A DNA stretch of 43,656 bases from the NCBI GenBank assembly GCA_017468385.1, contig JAFUIQ010000020.1, positions 1 through 43,656 on the forward strand. Reading direction: 5' to 3'. Source of the DNA: Clostridia bacterium. Lineage in GTDB: Bacteria > Bacillota > Clostridia > Oscillospirales > CAG-272. Within the stretch, counting starts at the first letter, position 1, and every line of letters starts with the position of its first letter. Made by a program: the position numbers and the translations under genes. Under the pieces are notes generated by a model. It was not told where the DNA came from, did no database searches, and saw only the letters and a list, made by a program, of their open reading frames with translations. Positions 1-43,656 of the stretch are shown piece by piece.

Positions 1-471
1 CACCAGAGAGATCGTTCCCTCCGCGAAAGGGGCATCGTACTGGCTGTCACGTACAACCGTCACCGGAAGATACTGTCCCGGCTTACTCTCCGCTTTCCCG
101 CTTGTGTTGTACATGAGAAGCGTATTATTCGGTGCCCGGTACCGCGTGGTGTGAAATATATCCTCTACAGCATCAAAATAGATCATATTGTAGTACATAG
201 AGAGCCCGTCCACGTCCAACTCGGATGTAAACCCTTCCAGCCGTCCGGCGTATGTAGTCTCGTTTTTCTTTTGCACCAGATAATACTCCATATAGGGCAG
301 GTTCATCATCCGGTTCAAATGAGACGCACAGGTGTACATCATGAGCACAAACAATGTGGCAACCGCGCCGAGAAAGGCGATCAGAGAAAGAATACAGTAG
401 CCGGATCGAAGCCGCCACACATTGGTAAAGATGCGCTTTATACTGCCAAAGCGTTTCGTTTTATTCGTCAT
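1..471 (-). CDS. Membrane protein, N-terminal 157 residues (C-terminus outside window)
   Basis: I do not recognise the family. The gene starts with ATG at 471 and runs open off the left edge. The protein begins MTNKTKRFGSIKRIF, a basic cytoplasmic stretch, followed by one hydrophobic segment at about residues 24-45 (YCILSLIAFLGAVATLFVLM). A hydrophilic, presumably extracytoplasmic domain follows up to the edge. One N-terminal helix followed by an outside domain is the layout of many MacB/FtsX-type ABC permeases, but the diagnostic C-terminal helices are not in the window, so this is only a possibility. It lies 4 bases after the stop of the upstream lipoprotein gene, so the two form an operon expressed from the BlaI-type promoter near 1214-1242. 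Confidence 0.7.
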   Translation of the reverse strand, partial: MTNKTKRFGSIKRIFTNVWRLRSGYCILSLIAFLGAVATLFVLMMYTCASHLNRMMNLPYMEYYLVQKKNETTYAGRLEGFTSELDVDGLSMYYNMIYFDAVEDIFHTTRYRAPNNTLLMYNTSGKAESKPGQYLPVTVVRDSQYDAPFAEGTISLV

Positions 472-475
472 AAAC

Positions 476-973
476 TTACCCCCCGTACTGCTGATAGTAT
501 TCCATATACAGCTTTGTGGAGTATAAACACTTGGCCACGCCGCCGCACGCACACTTGGACACATACATGTACACCGTCACGGTATCATCAATAGGCATGG
601 AACCGGCAAATGTGTATGGCTCGCCCTCATGGGGCGCGGTTTCCAGATTCTTCCCGCACAGCGTACAGAACCGGGTGTGAGTGTCGTTATCATAAAAATA
701 CCTTGTGGTTCTGTGTGAACATGTTTCTTGCCGCAGCGCTGCACGTTCTTCTGCGGACACATTGTACATCGCCTCTGTTTTTTGCAAGGCAGGCAAAAGC
801 ACTGTCTGCACATATTCCTCCTGCCCCGCCTTCGGCGCAAACACCGGCGATTCCCAATCGATCACAAAGGTCTCCCTTGCGTCCGGGATGGACTCCACAT
901 CCGCCACGCATCCTGCCAAGGCCGGCAGGAGCATGAGAAGCACAAGCCCAAGCAGATATTTGTGTTTTTTCAT
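476..973 (-). CDS. Cysteine-rich lipoprotein with a zinc-ribbon-like pattern, function unknown
   Basis: A 165-residue predicted lipoprotein. A signal peptide ends in the lipobox LAGC with the lipidated cysteine at residue 22. The ATG at 973 is chosen because AAGGAGG lies at the right distance upstream; the in-frame ATG at 1042 has no ribosome site. The mature part is unusual in carrying Cys85-Ser-His87 followed by Cys103-x2-Cys106, and then Cys141-x-Cys143 and Cys149. This resembles a zinc ribbon, which is uncommon in an exported protein; disulfide pairs are an alternative. It is the first gene of an operon with the membrane protein at 1-471. The promoter carries the same operator as the blaI-blaR1 operon at 42.1 kb. 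The function is not known; a role in the envelope-stress response controlled by that repressor is inferred from the operator. Confidence 0.8.
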   Translation of the reverse strand: MKKHKYLLGLVLLMLLPALAGCVADVESIPDARETFVIDWESPVFAPKAGQEEYVQTVLLPALQKTEAMYNVSAEERAALRQETCSHRTTRYFYDNDTHTRFCTLCGKNLETAPHEGEPYTFAGSMPIDDTVTVYMYVSKCACGGVAKCLYSTKLYMEYYQQYGG

Positions 974-1192: not shown

Positions 1193-1228
1193 CTACTGCG
1201 TTAGATCAATTACACTCTAACACAGTAG
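1193..1228 (-). promoter_or_regulatory. BlaI-type operator (two dyads)
   Basis: On the minus strand the half-site CTACTGTGTTAGA (1216-1228) is followed after 10 nt by TCTAACGCAGTAG (1193-1205). The two halves are inverted copies with one mismatch. Each half is itself roughly palindromic (TCTA...TAGA when the flanking T is included), so the site could hold two repressor dimers about two helical turns apart. It covers the -10 region. The same sequence, with the same 10-nt gap and the same distance to the -35 box, lies before blaI at 42085-42120. Confidence 0.85.
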
Positions 1229-1242
1229 ATCTGTTTTGTCAA
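1214..1242 (-). promoter_or_regulatory. SigA-type promoter of the lipoprotein operon
   Basis: Minus-strand -35 TTGACA (1237-1242), a 17-nt spacer and -10 TAGAGT (1214-1219). The operator begins 8 nt after the -35 box and runs through the -10, so a bound repressor would block polymerase. Confidence 0.8.
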
Positions 1243-1694: not shown

Positions 1695-2632
1695 GGGGTA
1701 GATTTAAATTTTTTCAAATTATTTTTTGCCTTATTTATGACGGCGGAAATCGGGATCTGGGCAAGGAGCACAGCCCCAAACATCAGCACACATCCGAGCA
1801 GTTCCCTGCCCGATAAAGACTGATTCAGAATCACCCATCCCGCCAGCACGGAGAACACGGACTCCAGGCTCATCAAAAGGGATGCCAGTGTGGGCGGCAC
1901 ATTCTTCTGCGCCACGATCTGCAAGGTATATCCGATGGCGCTGGAGAAAAGGCCGGCGTACAGAATCGGCATCCATGCCTCCACGAGCGATGCCCAGGTG
2001 GGCGTTTCGGTGATCAGCATCATTATGGCGGACAAAACGCCGCAAGTGAAAAACTGAATGCAGGCCAGCTTTACACCGTCCACTTGGGGGGAGAAATGAT
2101 CCACGAGGAGAATCTGGCCGGAAAAAACCACCGCGCAGATCAAAACCAGAAAATCGCCGTAGGAAATGGCAAATCCCTCTTTGATGCAAAGAAGATACAT
2201 ACCGACGGTGGCCAACGCCACACCGATCCACACGGCGAGGGGAATCTTCTTTTTCATAAATATCCCGGCGAGGGGCACGATCACGATATACAGCGCGGTG
2301 ATGAAGCCTGCCTTGCCCACGGTGGTAGCGGGATCGCCAATACCGATCTGCTGGAAGGCACTGGCGATCATCAGCGCCGTGCCGCACAGAATTCCGCCGA
2401 TCCACAGCGCCCGGGGAGAGGAAACATTTTTCGCCTCACCTCCGCCGCGGCGATTCCGCCAAGCGATCACGGGCAAAAGCGCAACTCCCGCGATAAAGGA
2501 CCGGCTGGCCAAAAATGTAAACGGTCCCACGCTGTCTCCGCCCACACTTTGGGCAACGAAGGCCACGCCCCAGATCATGGCGGTGAGCACCAGAAGCAGT
2601 GCCGATCCCATTTGTTTGAACTTGTTTGTCAT
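1691..2632 (-). CDS. EamA/DMT-family transporter
   Basis: A 313-residue inner-membrane protein of the drug/metabolite transporter superfamily, with the usual length and about ten hydrophobic segments arranged as two EamA repeats. The first helix carries the family-typical LLLVLTAMIWGVAFVAQ, and the second repeat starts near GDFLVLICAVVFSGQILLVDHFSP. The substrate cannot be read from sequence; family members export amino acids, drugs or other metabolites. The ATG at 2632 is preceded by AAAGAGG. It is a single gene whose end overlaps the tRNA-Leu promoter. Confidence 0.9.
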   Translation of the reverse strand: MTNKFKQMGSALLLVLTAMIWGVAFVAQSVGGDSVGPFTFLASRSFIAGVALLPVIAWRNRRGGGEAKNVSSPRALWIGGILCGTALMIASAFQQIGIGDPATTVGKAGFITALYIVIVPLAGIFMKKKIPLAVWIGVALATVGMYLLCIKEGFAISYGDFLVLICAVVFSGQILLVDHFSPQVDGVKLACIQFFTCGVLSAIMMLITETPTWASLVEAWMPILYAGLFSSAIGYTLQIVAQKNVPPTLASLLMSLESVFSVLAGWVILNQSLSGRELLGCVLMFGAVLLAQIPISAVINKAKNNLKKFKSTP

Positions 2633-2923
2633 ATGTACCTCTTTGCTTATCCGATTGGGTCGATAAAAATCACGGAATCATTATACTACAATTTCTGTCA
2701 AAAGAAAAGCATTTTTGCCACAATATCCGAATTTGCGAAAACGCTCTCCCTGGCATTGCCAAAAACGATGATTTTACACGCCGCATCCGCGGATGCTGTC
2801 GATTATTCGCTGATTTACCAAAAGTTTTGGGGTACCCAATCCGATGCACGGCGATTATAATAATAGTAACTCCATTCTTTAATGAACCGCGACATGCGGA
2901 ATTGCGCGAAAGGAGATGCCGCC

Positions 2924-3511
2924 GTGCGCGGCACACACATTATGGAACTGATACTGATCAGCGAAAGCAAACTGAAGGTCATGCTCACAGCGGACGATAT
3001 GCGCCGCTACAATCTGGACTGCGACACCATGGATTCCGACGCCGCACCGTCCCGCCGGGCGTTCTGGAACATTCTGGACGAGGCGCGGGCGCAGACCGGC
3101 TTCGATCCCGGCGGTGAGAAAGTATTCGTGCAGTTATATCCCAGCAAAACCGGCGGATGCGAAATGTTTGTCACCAAAATCGGCGGAAGTCCGGCGGACA
3201 TCTCTCAAACAGCTATACCGAGAAAGCACAAAAAAAAGTCCGTCCCCCTCTGCACGGAGCACGCATACGCCTTCACCAGCCTGTCCCATCTGCTGCAGGC
3301 GTGCCGCCGGCTGAAACAAACATACACAGGCTCATCGAAAGCCTATGTGGATCGGGAGAAGCGGGAATACTTTCTGATTCTGTCCGAGGAAGCCACTGTT
3401 CTTGCCGAATACGAAGCACACAAATGCAAATCCCGGGAGATTCCCTACATACTGGAATACTGCCGCTGCTTCTGCAACGACGCCGCCGGGACTCTTGCGG
3501 ATCTGGCATAG
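2924..3511 (+). CDS. MecA-family adaptor protein
   Basis: A 195-residue protein related to MecA, the ClpC/ClpP adaptor that delivers ComK and other substrates in Bacillus. The N-terminal domain (MELILISESKLKVMLTADDM..) and the FDPGGEKVFVQLYPSKTGGCEMFV segment match that family, followed by a linker and a C-terminal domain with AYAFTSLSHLLQACRRL. The GTG at 2924 is preferred because AAAGGAG (2909-2915) lies 9 nt before it; the ATG at 2942 would be 27 nt away and the ATG at 2882 has no ribosome site. Substrates in this organism are unknown. Confidence 0.8.
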   Translation: MRGTHIMELILISESKLKVMLTADDMRRYNLDCDTMDSDAAPSRRAFWNILDEARAQTGFDPGGEKVFVQLYPSKTGGCEMFVTKIGGSPADISQTAIPRKHKKKSVPLCTEHAYAFTSLSHLLQACRRLKQTYTGSSKAYVDREKREYFLILSEEATVLAEYEAHKCKSREIPYILEYCRCFCNDAAGTLADLA

Positions 3512-34804: not shown

Positions 34805-34820
34805 TGGGCAGTATGTGGGA

Positions 34821-34935
34821 CACCACAGGAGGACACGTATGAGACGCTATCTGAAAAGCATGGCCATTCTTGCCCTGATCGCCGCGCTCCTTATGGGGTG
34901 TAATACGATACCCGACACGCCCGATGTGCCGGAGG
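34821..34935 (+). repeat. Conserved 5' block of the lipoprotein genes, copy A
   Basis: 115 bases spanning the ribosome site, signal peptide and lipobox region of the first lipoprotein gene. They are repeated almost exactly at 37094-37208 (copy C) and more loosely at about 35964-36065 (copy B). The stretch from the end of the signal peptide through GATGTGCCGGAGG is identical in A and C, which suggests recent duplication or gene conversion. Confidence 0.85.
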
Positions 34936-35954
34936 TGCCGGATATTCCAGAGGATGTCGGGACGGATACAAGTGCAGACACAGGAACGGACACAACCGAG
35001 AACACGGACACTGACATCGCTATTCCGGCCGAGGATAGGTTTTCCGTAGCATACGAATGTCCTGTTATTCCCTATGTAACGGATTTGTCGGGGATCACAA
35101 AACTGAATTATGATTTGCACAAGGTAGACTTTAATATACTGTCCGATATGTCATTTCAGGACCGACTGTATCCGCTGAACAACGGATGTTGGGCATATGG
35201 GTATAGGTTTTTCTCTGTAAAAACGACCAATAGCAAACAGCTGATGACACCCATTATGCAGGCTATCGCAATTTTGTATCCGGATGGAGCCATACCTCAT
35301 TGGTATCCGCGATGGGCTGAAGACACAACATTTTCCGCCAGACCTATCAGCTTGACATTCACTCTGGCGCTGGCTTTTGATAACGGAGATCTTCTGAGTT
35401 GTCACAATCTTTCCTGTGAATTCCGAAACCATGTGACAAGCAACTTTCGTGGAACACATTCCTTTGGTGAGATGATCCGTGACAATCGCTTCAGCCGTAT
35501 TGCCGCATGCCAGAGCAAAATGTTTGCGTACTATTTTCCGAATGAGTTCAGCCGCCAGGAGACGATCATTCCAGCCTATGCTCTCTTTGACCGATTCACT
35601 CGTCTTACCGATTATAAATACTGCGAACTGTATGCATCCGGTGATGTTTTCGTTGGCCTGTATTACGATAAAAATTTCATAGTTCACACTGATATCATCG
35701 ATGAAACGGGAGAAATCCTGCGCAGTGAAGCAACAAGCCTTCGCGCGAAATATCCGGAAGAAAAGAATGACTACGGCTATGACGGTTTAACTGTAATGCA
35801 GGACAGCAAAACGGGACTTTACTATTATGCAAATGCCAAAGGGGAGGCAGTATGTGAACCCAAATTTACCGAGTGCACCAACATCAAAAACGGCACAGCG
35901 GTTGTGAAAATTGGCTCTGTGCTGTACATGCTGGTTGTAACCTCGGCGGAATGA
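34839..35954 (+). CDS. Tandem lipoprotein paralog 1, WG-repeat-like C-terminus
   Basis: A 371-residue lipoprotein with lipobox LLMGC (Cys21) and an acidic Pro/Asp/Thr-rich linker of about 40 residues. The outer domain shares these blocks with its two neighbours: FTRLTDYKYCELYASGDVF, YPEEKNDYGYDGLTV, and the final YANAKGEAVCEPKFTECTNIKNG. The last block resembles a WG-type beta repeat (a residue pair reporting a state, then KNGTAVVK). Function unknown. ATG 34839 follows AGGAGG. GC content is visibly lower than in the housekeeping genes. Confidence 0.82.
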   Translation: MRRYLKSMAILALIAALLMGCNTIPDTPDVPEVPDIPEDVGTDTSADTGTDTTENTDTDIAIPAEDRFSVAYECPVIPYVTDLSGITKLNYDLHKVDFNILSDMSFQDRLYPLNNGCWAYGYRFFSVKTTNSKQLMTPIMQAIAILYPDGAIPHWYPRWAEDTTFSARPISLTFTLALAFDNGDLLSCHNLSCEFRNHVTSNFRGTHSFGEMIRDNRFSRIAACQSKMFAYYFPNEFSRQETIIPAYALFDRFTRLTDYKYCELYASGDVFVGLYYDKNFIVHTDIIDETGEILRSEATSLRAKYPEEKNDYGYDGLTVMQDSKTGLYYYANAKGEAVCEPKFTECTNIKNGTAVVKIGSVLYMLVVTSAE

Positions 35955-35982
35955 TACATATTTGCACCACAGGAGGACACGT

Positions 35983-37083
35983 ATGAGACGCTATTTGAAA
36001 AGTATCACTCTGCTTGCCTTGATCGCCGCGCTTTTTGTGGGGTGTGAAACCGCAACTGACACGCCGGATGTTCCGAATGTGGAGGATACCACGCCGCCCG
36101 AGACAACTCCATCGGACAGGATTGGAAAGTATGCGTTTTATGAACCATCCGTTATACCTTATGTGACGGATTTGTCGGAGCTCAAAGAGTTGAATTATAA
36201 TTTGTATAAGTTTACGGATCAATCTCCTTCTTCTGACTATGGAATCTTTTGTTTAGGAGATAGAGTTCCATTCAATGAACGCTTTTACCCCTTGGATAAC
36301 GGATGCTGGGCATACGTAACACAACGTTATTGGGTACATACTGTTGATAGCAGAAAAAACAACAACAGGGATAAAAAGACTACCATTCCCCACGTAGTAC
36401 ACATCGTGTATCCCGATGGAAGCCTGCCCCATGTTGATAAGACCACATCCACCGGAGAGCGTAATCCACTGTACAAAGAATTTACTGTTGCTATGGCCTA
36501 TGATACAGGCGATCTGCTTACCGCACGCCTTTATGGAAAATTCAAAAATCAAACAAATATCTCCAAAACACTGGACTACGAAATAGGCTGGTCTACAGGC
36601 GAACTCATCAAAGACAACCGATTCAGTCGTATTGTTGAATATTACGGGGAGATGGAGTGGCTGTATCAAATTGGGCCGTTTTTGCCGTACAATATCACCC
36701 CGAGGTACGCTCTGTTCGATCGATTTACCCGACTCACCGATTATAAATACTGCGAACTGTACGCATCTGGGGACGTATTCCTTGGCCTGTATTTCGACGA
36801 GGACAACATTCTCTATAGTGAAGTCATCAGTGAAACGGGAGAGATTGTACACAGCGAGGCAGCCGATCTTCGAGAAGAATACCCGGAGGAAAAGAACGAC
36901 TACGGATACGACGGTCTGACCGTAGAGCGCGACAGCAAAACGGGACTTTACTATTATGTAAATGCCAAGGGAGAGGCAGTGTGTGAGCCCACATTTACCG
37001 AGTGCACCAACATCAAAAACGGCACAGCGGTTGTCCAAATCGGCTCGGTGCTGTACATGCTGGTGGTAACATCGGCGGAGTGA
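35983..37083 (+). CDS. Tandem lipoprotein paralog 2
   Basis: A 366-residue lipoprotein with lipobox LFVGC (Cys21), a shorter linker (NVEDTTPPETTPSDR), and the same three conserved blocks near the C-terminus as its neighbours. The middle part (residues 60-230) has diverged most, including a Lys/Asn-rich insert (DSRKNNNRDKKTT). It begins 28 nt after paralog 1 with the same AGGAGG-spaced start, so the cluster is one operon. Confidence 0.82.
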   Translation: MRRYLKSITLLALIAALFVGCETATDTPDVPNVEDTTPPETTPSDRIGKYAFYEPSVIPYVTDLSELKELNYNLYKFTDQSPSSDYGIFCLGDRVPFNERFYPLDNGCWAYVTQRYWVHTVDSRKNNNRDKKTTIPHVVHIVYPDGSLPHVDKTTSTGERNPLYKEFTVAMAYDTGDLLTARLYGKFKNQTNISKTLDYEIGWSTGELIKDNRFSRIVEYYGEMEWLYQIGPFLPYNITPRYALFDRFTRLTDYKYCELYASGDVFLGLYFDEDNILYSEVISETGEIVHSEAADLREEYPEEKNDYGYDGLTVERDSKTGLYYYVNAKGEAVCEPTFTECTNIKNGTAVVQIGSVLYMLVVTSAE

Positions 37084-37093
37084 TACATATCTA

Positions 37094-37208
37094 CACCACA
37101 GGAGGAAACGTATGAGACGCTATTGGAAAAGCATCACTTTGCTTGCCCTGATCGCCGCGCTCCTTATGGGGTGTAATACGATACCCGACACGCCCGATGT
37201 GCCGGAGG
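37094..37208 (+). repeat. Conserved 5' block of the lipoprotein genes, copy C
   Basis: Second near-identical copy of the block at 34821-34935; it covers the ribosome site and signal peptide of paralog 3. Confidence 0.85.
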
Positions 37209-38125
37209 ATGTGAAAGAACCGGACTTATCCACGATTACTAAACTGGAGTATGAGCTGCATCCGTTAAACATTTCGCCTCCCACCGCCGGTTATGTGGCG
37301 ATTCTTCCTTTTAAAGATCGTTTCTATCCACTCGATCATGGCAGCTGGGCTATGAAAGAAACAGGCTACACTGCATCTACCGCAAACGGAATTATGAGCG
37401 GCAAAAATACGCCCACCCAGTTAGCGATCCAAGCCGTTAATGTAATTGATGCAAGTGGAATTATACCCAACATCACTCCTTCGTCCCCTGCGGCACAAGG
37501 AAGGATTTTATACCACGCTTGCACATTGGCCATGGCGTTTGACACCGGTGATCTTCTAACATGTATCGATTATTCACTCAAATTCAAAAACTACAAAAGA
37601 CCGGAAGACTTGAAAAACATCCGTGAATATTGGATGTCGGGAGAACTTATCCGAGATAACCGCTTTAGCCGGATTGCCAACAGCGATGGTGGCGCGGAAT
37701 GGCTTTTTCAGCAAGGACCGTTCACGCCAGATATTATTATTCCTCACTATGCTTTGTATGATCGGTTCACACGTCTTACCGATTATAAATACTGCGAACT
37801 GTATGCGTCGGGAGATGTATTCCTGGGGTTGTATGTAGACAAAAACAAAAACCTGCACTGCGATGTGATCAGCGAAACGGGCGAGATTTTGCGCAGTGAA
37901 GCGGCGGATCTTCGTGCGGAATACCCGGAGGAGAAAAACGATTACGGATACGACGGACTGACCGTGAAACGCGACAGCGACTCGAAATTGTACTTTTATG
38001 CAAACGCCAAAGGAGATGCTGTTTGCGAACCCGCATTCACGAATTGCACCAACATCAAAAACGGTACCGCAATTGTTATGATTAAGGACGAGTTGTACAT
38101 GCTGGTGGTAACCTCGGCGGAGTAA
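37112..38125 (+). CDS. Tandem lipoprotein paralog 3
   Basis: A 337-residue lipoprotein with lipobox LLMGC (Cys21). The linker is nearly lost, so the domain starts soon after the membrane. The conserved blocks are again present (RLTDYKYCELYASGDVFLGLY, RAEYPEEKNDYGYDGLTV, TNCTNIKNGTAIV). Its N-terminal coding block is closest to paralog 1 and its later blocks lie between 1 and 2, as expected after gene conversion. A strong terminator follows. Confidence 0.82.
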   Translation: MRRYWKSITLLALIAALLMGCNTIPDTPDVPEDVKEPDLSTITKLEYELHPLNISPPTAGYVAILPFKDRFYPLDHGSWAMKETGYTASTANGIMSGKNTPTQLAIQAVNVIDASGIIPNITPSSPAAQGRILYHACTLAMAFDTGDLLTCIDYSLKFKNYKRPEDLKNIREYWMSGELIRDNRFSRIANSDGGAEWLFQQGPFTPDIIIPHYALYDRFTRLTDYKYCELYASGDVFLGLYVDKNKNLHCDVISETGEILRSEAADLRAEYPEEKNDYGYDGLTVKRDSDSKLYFYANAKGDAVCEPAFTNCTNIKNGTAIVMIKDELYMLVVTSAE

Positions 38126-40303: not shown

Positions 40304-40498
40304 TACGCGGTGTTTCGCAAAAGGAAAAATCCTGTCGGAGTATGGATTTTTTTGATCCGATGTGATATACTGTAAGCAGCATATCGTAGTACGAAATCAG
40401 ACGTTACGGTTGTGATTTGGTCACATCATTCTGTTCCGCAGTATCGTCGCTGAACCGATCTGCGGCTATCCTATACTGTGGCGAAAGGATCTCACATC

Positions 40499-42022
40499 AT
40501 GCACGCAGGAAAACGGAGTTTTCTCCTTTTCAGTATTCTTCTGTTTATATGGCTTCTTCAGCCTGTTTCCGCGGCGGAGGAAGCATCTCCCTCTATTATC
40601 ATCACCGGCACCGGATTTGCCAATCCCGCCGCGCTGACGGATGGTGACCGTCTAACCTACACAAAGACAAGCGGCGGCGGCACCGTAACCGTTTCCGCAG
40701 ACGCAGGCATTGATTCTTTGTACATCGTGTTCGATCGCGTCCCGGCGGAATGGACGATGACAGACGGCGCTGCCGCGATTCCTTGCGGGCAAAACGGATT
40801 TCTGCACGAATTTGTGGATGTGGAAGCTTTGCTTGGCGGCCGTCCTGCATCGCTGACGCTGAATTTCCCCGCCGGCACATCTATCGACGAAATCTACGCC
40901 TTTGCCACCGATGAAATCCCCGATTGGGTACAGATATGGCAGCCCCCCTGCGAGGCGGCAGACATCCTTCTCCTCTCCTCCCACTCCGACGATGAGCAGT
41001 TGTTCTTCGCCGGAATTCTCCCCCTGTATGCCGGGGAGAAGGGATTGGATGTGCAGGTGGTGTATCTGGTCCATCATTTTGACACCCACAACCGCCCCCA
41101 TGAGCAGTTGAACGGACTGTGGGAAGTGGGCGTCCGCCACTATCCGGTCATCTCCGGCTTTCCCGATCTGTATTCGGAGTCGCTGAACGGCGCGATTTCC
41201 ATCTACAAATCCTACGGCCATTCCTACGAGGATTTCTGCAGCTACATAACCACCAACATTCGCCGATTCCGCCCGCAGGTGCTGATCACCCACGATCCCG
41301 CCGGGGAATACAGCCACGGCACCCACATTCTCTGCACCGCTACGGTACAGGAGTGCCTGGATTACGCCGCCGATCCCGCCGTCTATCCCGACACGGCGGA
41401 CACCTACGGCACATGGGATGTGCCCAAAACCTATTTGCATCTGTACAAAGAGAATCCCATCGTGATGGATTTTGACACACCCCTCTCCGCCTTCGGCGGG
41501 AAAACCGCGTTTCAGGTATCCCAGGATGGCTTTGCCCATCACAAATCCCAACATTGGACATGGTTCTATAAGTGGATCTACGGCACCAAGGACAAGCCGA
41601 TCACCAAGGCGGCCCAGATCAACTATCTGTCCCCCTGCCGGTACGGCCTCTATCGCACCACCGTGGGCGCCGACGTGGTGGGCGGAGATTTCTTTGAGAA
41701 CCTGACATCCTATGCGGAGAAAAAAGCCGCCGAAGAAGCGGCCAAGCAGCAGGACACCACCGCGGCGGATACCGAATTGCCCCCGGATACGGCGGACACC
41801 GACACGGAAGCCGCCACGGATGCGGCGGTCACTACTGATCTGCCGGACACCTCCTTCGCGGGCACCTCCTCCCCGGCAACGGAGGAGCCGCCGGAGCCCA
41901 CCGATCCGGCCCGCCCCTCATCCGCTGCTTTCATTCTGGCAGCAGTCGCTGTTGCGGCTGCCCTGGTTGCCATGATCCTGCTTCCTATGTGTATGCATCC
42001 GTCCAAGAAAACCAAAAGATAA
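40499..42022 (+). CDS. Exported PIG-L/LmbE-type deacetylase, membrane-anchored
   Basis: A 507-residue protein. Signal peptide (cleavage near VSAA, residue 25), a beta-sandwich of about 110 residues resembling a discoidin or F5/8 type C sugar-binding domain, then a PIG-L deacetylase domain with zinc motif HSDDE (162-166) and HDPAGEYSHGTH (265-276). An Ala/Thr/Asp/Pro-rich linker of about 90 residues leads to a C-terminal helix (AAFILAAVAVAAALVAMILLP) and a basic tail. PIG-L enzymes remove N-acetyl groups from amino sugars, so a cell-wall or glycan substrate outside the cell is likely. ATG 40499 follows GAAAGGA. TATACTGT stands at 40366 and 40472 upstream; the promoter is uncertain. Confidence 0.9.
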   Translation: MHAGKRSFLLFSILLFIWLLQPVSAAEEASPSIIITGTGFANPAALTDGDRLTYTKTSGGGTVTVSADAGIDSLYIVFDRVPAEWTMTDGAAAIPCGQNGFLHEFVDVEALLGGRPASLTLNFPAGTSIDEIYAFATDEIPDWVQIWQPPCEAADILLLSSHSDDEQLFFAGILPLYAGEKGLDVQVVYLVHHFDTHNRPHEQLNGLWEVGVRHYPVISGFPDLYSESLNGAISIYKSYGHSYEDFCSYITTNIRRFRPQVLITHDPAGEYSHGTHILCTATVQECLDYAADPAVYPDTADTYGTWDVPKTYLHLYKENPIVMDFDTPLSAFGGKTAFQVSQDGFAHHKSQHWTWFYKWIYGTKDKPITKAAQINYLSPCRYGLYRTTVGADVVGGDFFENLTSYAEKKAAEEAAKQQDTTAADTELPPDTADTDTEAATDAAVTTDLPDTSFAGTSSPATEEPPEPTDPARPSSAAFILAAVAVAAALVAMILLPMCMHPSKKTKR

Positions 42023-42070: not shown

Positions 42071-42099
42071 TTGACAAATGTGCTCTACTGTGTTAGACT
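42071..42099 (+). promoter_or_regulatory. SigA promoter of blaI-blaR1
   Basis: TTGACA (42071-42076), a 17-nt spacer and TAGACT (42094-42099). The -35 box and spacing are the same as for the promoter at 1214-1242. Confidence 0.85.
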
Positions 42100-42120
42100 A
42101 TAGTCAATCTAATGCAGTAG
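42085..42120 (+). promoter_or_regulatory. BlaI-type operator (autoregulation)
   Basis: CTACTGTGTTAGA (42085-42097), a 10-nt gap, TCTAATGCAGTAG (42108-42120). The first half is identical to the one at 1216-1228 and the second differs by one base. In both promoters the operator begins 8 nt after the -35 box. Confidence 0.87.
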
Positions 42121-42136
42121 AGCACGGAGGTCACAC

Positions 42137-42508
42137 ATGGAAATGCCGAAAATTTTTGAGAGTGAATACCGCTTTTGCCTGATCTTATGGGAGCACGAAC
42201 CCATCAAGAGTACGGAGCTGGTAAAACTGTGCCAGGAGCAGTTGGGATGGAAATCCACCACCACCTACACCGTAATCAAGCGTCTGTCCGAGCGGGGCGT
42301 TGTGAAAAATGAAAACACCATCGTCACGTCCCTGGTGAGCAAGGAAGCGGTCCAGGCGGCGGAAATTGAGGAAATGGTGGAGAAAACCTTTGAGGGTTCC
42401 CTGCCCGCTTTTGTGGCCGCCTTCACCAAGCATCGCGACATCTCAAAGGAGGAAATTGACGCGGTGCAGGCCATGATCGACCGATTCCGGGAAGGAGGAG
42501 GCCAATGA
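42137..42508 (+). CDS. blaI: BlaI/MecI-family transcriptional repressor
   Basis: A 123-residue winged-helix repressor. The DNA-binding domain (ESEYRFCLILWEHEPIKSTELVKLC.. and GWKSTTTYTVIKRLSERGVVKNE) matches the family, and the C-terminal part is a helical dimerisation region (EIEEMVEKTFEGSLPAFVAAF). In the family the repressor is removed by proteolysis when the BlaR1 sensor is activated. It should bind the operators at 42085-42120 and 1193-1228. ATG 42137 follows CGGAGG; the stop overlaps blaR1 by 4 bases. Confidence 0.93.
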   Translation: MEMPKIFESEYRFCLILWEHEPIKSTELVKLCQEQLGWKSTTTYTVIKRLSERGVVKNENTIVTSLVSKEAVQAAEIEEMVEKTFEGSLPAFVAAFTKHRDISKEEIDAVQAMIDRFREGGGQ

Positions 42509-43656
42509 GCGATCTGTTTCTGAAAATTCTCAACATGAGCATCACGGCCAGTTGGCTGGTGCCGGTAGTGTTGCTTCTGCGGCTTCTCTTGAAAAAGGCG
42601 CCTCGCTGGATCCACGTTCTGCTCTGGGGCATGGTGGCGCTGCGGCTGATTTGTCCGTTTTCCGTGGAAAGCGACCTCAGCTTGATCCCCAGCGCCCAGA
42701 CGATTCCGTCGAATATCGAGTTGGATATCACCCCCGCCATCGACAGCGGCGTTCCGATGATCAATCAGACCATCAATCCCCTAATACAGAATTCCAATAC
42801 GCCGGCAGCCGGCGCCAGCATCAATCCGCTGCAGATCACCTTCGGTATTCTTTCCAATCTGTGGGTGATGGGCATGCTTGCCATGACACTCTACACCGCC
42901 ATCAGTTATCTTCGCTTGCGGCACAGCATTGGCACAGCCATTCGCCTGCGGGACAACATTTATCAGAGCGAGCATGTGCAATCCCCCTTTGTGTTGGGGA
43001 TTTTGCAGCCGCGAATCTATCTGCCCTATCGCCTGACGGAAACCGATCGGGAGCACGTAATTGCCCACGAAACGGCCCACATCCGCCGACGGGATCACTA
43101 CTGGAAGCCCCTGGGCTTTCTTCTGCTCACGATCCACTGGTTCAATCCGCTGATGTGGCTGGCCTATGTTCTTCTGTGCCGGGATATCGAAGCCGCGTGC
43201 GACGAGCGCGTGATCCGCGATCTGGGATACGACGGCCGGGCCGATTATTCCCAGGCACTTCTGAACTGCAGTATCCCCCGCCGTGCTATTGCGGCCTGTC
43301 CCCTGGCCTTTGGTGAAGTGAATGTGCGGGATCGGGTGAAGTCTGTATTGAACTACAAGAAGCCCGCTTTCTGGATTCTCCTTCTGGCTGTGATCGCCTG
43401 TGTATTGACCGCGGTGTTCTTCCTGACTGATCCCGCGTCGTCCCTGGATGAGGATCTGCAGATATTCATCGATTGCCAGATCGCGGAGCATCATCAAACC
43501 GAGCACACCGCCGGCCATGCCAGCGTGCTGGACTGGAAACTGCTGGGGCAGAAGCGAAAAGGAGACGAAACCACATTGTATATGTGGGTGCTGTATGAGG
43601 AATACAGTTGCGAGGACGGCATTTTGAAGCAGGAGTCCGGCGCCCACTCACCCACC
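42505..43656 (+). CDS. BlaR1-like M56 sensor protease (partial, cut by window edge)
   Basis: 384 residues of a membrane metalloprotease of family M56. Helices near the N-terminus (two), at about 113-133 and 203-224 and, before the outer domain, at 371-391 equivalents (FWILLLAVIACVLTAVFFLT, about residues 291-310) frame the zinc motif HETAH (188-192) and the downstream EAACDE with the third ligand. The outer domain after the last helix (SSLDEDLQIFIDCQ..) does not look like a penicillin-binding domain so far as it is visible, so the signal may not be a beta-lactam. GGAGGAGG lies before ATG 42505, which overlaps the blaI stop. Confidence 0.9.
   Translation, partial: MSDLFLKILNMSITASWLVPVVLLLRLLLKKAPRWIHVLLWGMVALRLICPFSVESDLSLIPSAQTIPSNIELDITPAIDSGVPMINQTINPLIQNSNTPAAGASINPLQITFGILSNLWVMGMLAMTLYTAISYLRLRHSIGTAIRLRDNIYQSEHVQSPFVLGILQPRIYLPYRLTETDREHVIAHETAHIRRRDHYWKPLGFLLLTIHWFNPLMWLAYVLLCRDIEAACDERVIRDLGYDGRADYSQALLNCSIPRRAIAACPLAFGEVNVRDRVKSVLNYKKPAFWILLLAVIACVLTAVFFLTDPASSLDEDLQIFIDCQIAEHHQTEHTAGHASVLDWKLLGQKRKGDETTLYMWVLYEEYSCEDGILKQESGAHSPT

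Follow-up and report, generated by a model that had tools for sequence, protein, structure and literature searches.

The 43,656-base stretch of DNA analyzed here, hereafter the window, very probably contains a two-operon regulon controlled by a single BlaI-type repressor, and the output of that regulon would be an operon encoding a lipoprotein and an ABC transporter. By default, BlaI-BlaR1 pairs are taken to regulate beta-lactam resistance; here the second target appears to be an ABC transporter operon. The window is the entire contig C2 of a draft genome of 62 contigs and 2,225,653 bases that is 93.6% complete, so that each operon is truncated at a contig end, although the 41 kb separating their operators is real. 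Circularity of C2 was considered and rejected, because it has no exact terminal overlap of 16-500 bases and the genes at its ends converge.

One operator at two promoters

The two promoters and their operators are the following.

1193..1228, minus strand: left operator, a 36-bp dyad CTACTGTGTTAGA-N10-TCTAACGCAGTAG over the -10 of the lipoprotein/ABC operon (pattern search)
1214..1242, minus strand: left promoter, TTGACA (1242-1237), 17-nt spacer, TAGAGT (1219-1214), extended -10 TG (promoter scan)
42071..42099, plus strand: blaI promoter, TTGACA (42071-42076), 17 nt, TAGACT (42094-42099) (direct reading)
42085..42120, plus strand: right operator, a 36-bp dyad over the blaI -10 (pattern search)

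Read from 1242 to 1193 on the minus strand, the left promoter and operator are TTGACA-AAACAGAT-CTACTGTGTTAGA-GTGTAATTGA-TCTAACGCAGTAG, and at 42071-42120 on the plus strand the right ones are TTGACA-AATGTGCT-CTACTGTGTTAGA-CTATAGTCAA-TCTAATGCAGTAG. Both therefore follow the formula TTGACA-N8-CTACTGTGTTAGA-N10-TCTAAyGCAGTAG, with the 36-bp dyad covering the extended -10. The initial annotation had described the same operator at both ends of the window, with identical spacing to the base and the dyad lying over each -10, and the pattern search bears this out in every particular: sites were recovered at 1193-1228 and 42085-42120, the -35, the 8 nt, the first arm, the 10-nt gap and the second arm are shared, both promoters have a 17-nt spacer, and TAGAGT on the left and TAGACT on the right lie within the dyads. 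The left promoter is the sole promoter-like match in 900-1400, where the scan by itself would expect 0.7 such matches in shuffled sequence.

Could the dyads have arisen by chance? No dyad was found at up to three mismatches in 100 dinucleotide shuffles of the window, and the operators score 31.5 and 30.8, against a best of 12.6 in 100 mononucleotide shuffles. Across the draft genome the exact dyad occurs only at the two window sites, and the same two are the only hits for a slightly wider pattern at up to three mismatches, the reversed-pattern control giving none in either search. A chance origin is rejected by the shuffles together with this uniqueness. The initial annotation had named numerous promoterless copies around the genome as evidence that would count against its proposal; there are just two sites, each with its -35 and -10. 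A search for TTGACA-N8 followed by one half-site with up to one mismatch found four places, namely three blaI promoters of the same subfamily and the left operon; since the reversed control found one place, these four alone are not far above chance, whereas the full dyad is. The window and the initial 20 kb of contig C35 contain no additional CTACTGYRTTAGA half-site, even allowing one mismatch.

Comparison of the two sites base by base reveals where they have been conserved. The -35 is identical at 6/6 positions, the left arm at 13/13 and the right arm at 12/13, but the spacers, although equal in length, are identical at only 4/8 (N8) and 5/10 (N10) positions. In total the arms match at 25 of 26 positions and the spacers at 9 of 18 (Fisher p 0.0005), and identity in the promoter flanks is 18/60 and 22/60, which argues against a plain recent duplication. 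We read the contrast between arms and spacers or flanks as a likely signature of selection for binding by one repressor rather than of recent copying. Each 12-mer half-site has inverted ends, CTA-N6-TAG, and so each operator would probably accommodate two BlaI dimers.

The leader of the left operon, from operator to start codon, is approximately 220 nt, unlike that of blaI. It contains a weak terminator-like hairpin of six pairs at 1138-1156 on the minus strand, about 40 nt past the operator, and attenuation is possible there. No Rfam family matches an RNA element in this leader, the window yielding only five tRNAs at gathering score.

A lipoprotein and a predicted type VII ABC system

Read across two contigs that appear to adjoin, the left operon consists of the following genes.

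476..973, minus strand: lipoprotein, 165 aa, lipobox LPALAGC, C-x2-C and CACGG cysteine motifs (by eye)
1..471, minus strand: FtsX/MacB-type permease (permease 1), N-terminal 157 residues, cut by the contig end
C35 1070-2335: permease 2, weakly FtsX-like, 19 bits (below the cut-off of 25.5)
C35 ~2328-3011: LolD/MacB-type ABC ATPase, PF00005 126.4 bits

The lipoprotein has no Pfam or NCBIfam match at E 0.1 and was not found in the 96 relatives among 97 genomes searched (the window genome being the other). The permease 1 N-terminus is found in no other of 395 genomes, and the 157 residues within the window match no Pfam family by themselves. Residues 111-157 recur at the start of C35 in a protein search, and the last 141 bases of the C2 reverse strand are exactly the first 141 of C35. 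A 141-bp overlap is the usual sign that two contigs adjoin in the assembly graph, and as the frame is continuous across it, C2 and C35 appear to be neighbors; this link consists of assembly overlap and reading frame rather than a sequencing read, and the contigs were left unjoined. The permease 1 frame continues on C35 to 1053, and the C35 part scores 39.7 bits for FtsX and 30.3 bits for MacB_PCD, both above the Pfam cut-off. Solved relatives of the ATPase include YbbA, LolD, MacB and YtrE; among the best 25 of 189 NCBIfam models none reaches its cut-off. An FtsX-like permease with a MacB-like periplasmic domain is thus accompanied by a LolD/MacB-like ATPase, in the same operon by position, and these are the features of the type VII (FtsX/MacB/LolCDE) ABC systems.

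The initial annotation had predicted a lipoprotein and a membrane protein in this operon, no beta-lactamase, and an induced output of some other kind. The lipoprotein was confirmed by reading, the profile search identifies the membrane protein as the FtsX/MacB-type permease, and a lipoprotein, two permeases and an ABC ATPase include neither a beta-lactamase nor a resistant penicillin-binding protein (PBP), so the sequence supports an output consisting of a lipoprotein and an ABC system.

A terminator-like hairpin follows the ATPase gene at C35 3093-3116 (one found, with 0.7 expected in shuffles). Past it, C35 3325-9821 encodes a 753-aa lipoprotein, a DUF5050 lipoprotein, an ABC-2-type permease and a GldA/DrrA-like ATPase; this region has no CTACTG half-site and, given the hairpin, would be a separate unit.

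Permease 2 has matches in 15 other genomes of the 395 (best E 2.6e-13, 24% identity). Among 19 permease 2 loci scanned, some of them overlapping and most with 1.5 kb of flank, there was neither a dyad nor a -35 with a half-site. The genome with the best relative has the same permease-permease-ATPase order on a 3.4-kb contig that ends inside the first permease gene, before any promoter. Plasmid records contain no match to permease 2 or to the lipoprotein.

The repressor and its paralogues

The right operon comprises two genes.

42137..42508, plus strand: blaI, BlaI/MecI-family repressor, 123 aa (PF03965 1.4e-21; MecI 1okr 6.7e-7)
42505..43656, plus strand: blaR1-like M56 membrane metalloprotease, 384 aa present, cut by the contig end after the M56 domain (PF05569 1.8e-52)

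Assignment of the first product to the BlaI family, as originally proposed, is upheld by 77.4 bits for Penicillinase_R PF03965 (cut-off 22.6) and by matches to the MecI and BlaI structures, and at the sequence level its gene has the autoregulatory dyad overlapping its own promoter. Nine matches in the genome exceed the PF03965 cut-off, of which seven are strong and two are partial (25 bits). Three of the strong matches, one on C2 itself and the others on C55 and C44, belong to a single subfamily that starts with PKIFE..Y.FC, the C55 and C44 paralogues being 65-68% identical. All three blaI genes are preceded by TTGACA-N8 and then two CTA-N6-TAG half-sites: CTACTGTGTTAG-N12-CTAATGCAGTAG at C2, CTAATCTGTTAG-N14-CTAATCCATTAG at C55 and CTATCGTGTTAG-N11-CTAATCCATTAG at C44. 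Two further paralogues, on C25 and C18, are of the MEHxTLSxGEWKIMKLLW type. By eye, the repeats in their promoters are of a very different kind, GTTGACA/TGTCAAC, and the genome thus seems to contain no fewer than two classes of BlaI operator.

With three repressors of one subfamily sharing the same basic CTA-N6-TAG architecture, the left operon might be controlled by the C55 or C44 paralogue, or by all three together. We regard this as unlikely, since the left-site arms differ from the C2 blaI operator at 1 of 24 positions and from those of C55 and C44 at 5 of 24 each, and the 12-mers are 12 apart at each of the window sites, compared with 14 at C55 and 11 at C44. The three paralogous pairs thus appear, as far as their sequences indicate, to be insulated by the outer half-site bases and the spacing. 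Control by the C2 repressor is the reading that we retain, and we infer that C2 BlaI physically binds both window sites.

The operator in related genomes

A search with a wider pattern, CTAHT...TTAG-N11-14-CTAA...ADTAG, covered 395 family genomes and 394 order genomes (by our count 748 once overlaps are removed) and gave matches in 28 and 21 of them, respectively; the reversed-pattern control matched in one genome in each search (G217 and G558). Of the 747 order genomes other than that of the window, 45 have one site each, and TTGACA-N8 is present at 45/45. An open frame with a BlaI-like start was located by script 2-21 nt downstream of 44 of these operators, and by eye at the remaining one (L076), where the DNA downstream, STPKIFQSEYRFC, contains a BlaI-like start. 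Because all 45 external dyads precede blaI-like genes, the dyad can be regarded as the autoregulatory operator of this BlaI subfamily. Among the pattern-matching sites, only the left one in the window precedes something other than blaI, and its arms have at least two mismatches to each of 46 other operators compared. CTA, T5 and TTAG were fixed in each arm, so diverged sites such as the C44 site, CTATCG..., are missed.

At half-site position 4, which the search left free among A, C and T, C is found in all four window half-sites and A in 88 of 90 external ones (the others being one C and one T); none of the other operators examined has C in both of its halves. The window BlaI has residues rare among its relatives at positions 3, 26, 33, 40 and 71 of the first 75. 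A single-residue code for position 4 is not claimed, as relatives with Ser40 (L034, L043 and L045) retain an A operator (by eye). The CTACTG variant was also searched in contigs of named genomes, which possibly do not include the window's own genome, and 11 stretches were found (nine in Belliella, one in Tetragenococcus and one in Armatimonadota). These are not operators, for each forms a perfect or near-perfect hairpin, TTGACA is missing from the preceding 16 nt, and the first frame is not BlaI-like. The Belliella hairpin, CTACTGTCTTAGTTGCCTTAAGGCAACTAAGACAGTAG, perfect or near-perfect in nine contig stretches from two species, is perhaps a mobile-element end or a repeat.

A search at up to three mismatches recovered no dyad from the other four genomes of the genus. 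As none of the relatives was found to have the same target, the link between operator and target receives no support from conservation.

The sensor and its probable signal

The M56 HExxH motif residues H188, E189 and H192 are invariant in 20 subfamily sensors, a set comprising the cut window copy, the two paralogues from the same genome and 17 external sensors, and leaving out three of 23, namely L090 and L100 (by filter) and L098 (shortened), as well as the other 25 external loci. All 20 match Peptidase_M56, five have a bacterial Ig-like domain (Big_14) and one has DUF4825, and their outer regions are very different in length and poorly conserved.

Might the window sensor be an ordinary beta-lactam receptor, with a PBP domain past the contig end and the ABC operon as a secondary response? 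Canonical BlaR1 is built in this way, and the window copy is cut after 384 aa, with its last 141 bases matched by no other contig. Such a receptor would alter the signal and would be compatible with a two-operon regulon. Nevertheless we give it little credence, as none of the 20 sensors, the cut window copy included, matches a penicillin-binding or transpeptidase family at E 0.01. Judging from the related sensors scanned, which do not have such a domain, the window sensor, whose own sensor domain is cut off, would have none either, and a beta-lactam captured by a PBP-like domain is improbable as the signal.

Genes behind blaR1 were scanned for a Walker A and ABC signature motif over the 3.5-8.3 kb that follow 22 operators (those of 20 among the 45 external loci and of the two paralogues from the same genome). 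The only hit was on the opposite strand, with none on the same strand, and the blaI-blaR1 pair thus has no adjacent ABC partner at the loci examined.

It is very unlikely that the left dyad is a non-functional remnant of a duplicated blaI promoter: the promoter elements are common to both and no related genome has the same target, but the arms have been kept while spacers and flanks have drifted, and the left promoter is the only promoter-like match in its region.

Proposed mechanism and comparison with known systems

The two-operon regulon proposed originally, 41 kb from one operator to the other, is supported by the genome-wide uniqueness of the dyad and by the operators of relatives. Repressors of the BlaI family bind dyads of this sort in dimeric form, and BlaR1 signaling leads to their inactivation. 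In the window, BlaI dimers over the extended -10, probably two per operator, would shut both promoters. An extracytoplasmic signal would be read by the BlaR1-like M56 protease, leading to inactivation of BlaI, which would open blaI-blaR1 (a feedback) and the ABC operon jointly. The product would be a type VII, mechanotransmission-type ABC system together with a surface lipoprotein. Type VII ABC systems with FtsX-like permeases perform mechanical work on the membrane or on extracytoplasmic substrates, and the role of this one is most likely in envelope or antimicrobial-peptide stress.

The staphylococcal blaI-blaR1-blaZ and mecI-mecR1-mecA systems combine a BlaI-family repressor with an M56 sensor protease and a dyad over the promoter. 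The window shares all of this and differs in that neither operon encodes a beta-lactamase or PBP, and in that the subfamily sensors scanned have no penicillin-binding domain. CopY and TcrY are copper repressors, and BlaI relatives that control transporters, such as CopY, are known. The window BlaI belongs to the same repressor superfamily and would also control a transporter, scoring 44.3 bits against TIGR02698 (cut-off 121.95), but its gene is followed by one for an M56 sensor, and the target is an ABC system instead of a P-type ATPase. With LolCDE, MacB, YbbAP and YtrE the left operon shares an FtsX/MacB-type permease and a LolD/MacB/YbbA/YtrE-like ATPase; unlike them, it has two unequal permeases, an orphan cysteine-bearing lipoprotein and a BlaI dyad in front.

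Multi-operon BlaI regulons are already known. For the BlaI regulators of Clostridium thermocellum, ordered sites for four protomers and autoregulation have been described, and one regulator was assigned three operons (PMC8457756). The BlaI_0696 motif is an inverted GTCTAT with five nt between repeats, and its other targets are sensory and signal genes and one hypothetical protein, no ABC transporter being named in the section that describes them (PMC8457756). The architecture that we propose is supported by that study, in which inverted repeats are paired to give four protomer sites, BlaI is autoregulated and one BlaI has a regulon of three operons, and the window resembles the BlaI_0696 regulon in autoregulation with further operons, in paired inverted repeats for up to four protomers and in a target of unknown function (PMC8457756). 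A BlaI/M56 pair controlling an FtsX/MacB-type ABC operon did not turn up in searches of the open PMC literature, which misses most subscription journals.

The left operon would give a concrete, testable output for a subfamily whose matching operators, in 45 other genomes, precede only its own gene. One may speculate that the blaI-blaR1 pairs of this subfamily are a general envelope-signal switch, that the window exposes a lipoprotein and an FtsX/MacB-type ABC machine as one output of it, and that a private operator code insulates it from the two paralogous pairs; we offer this tentatively. If true, it would be a proteolysis-driven counterpart of BceRS-BceAB-like detoxification.

Other genes of the window

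Three tandem genes at 34815-38125 encode proteins of 337-379 aa without a Pfam family match at E 1e-5, and have repeated DNA in common (exact 25-mers). Just upstream of blaI, 40478-42022 encodes a 514-aa protein that carries a PIG-L deacetylase domain (PF02585). By eye it also has a stretch rich in threonine and proline and a hydrophobic segment at its C-terminus, and it probably acts as an enzyme at the cell surface. Between this gene and blaI is a hairpin with a T run.
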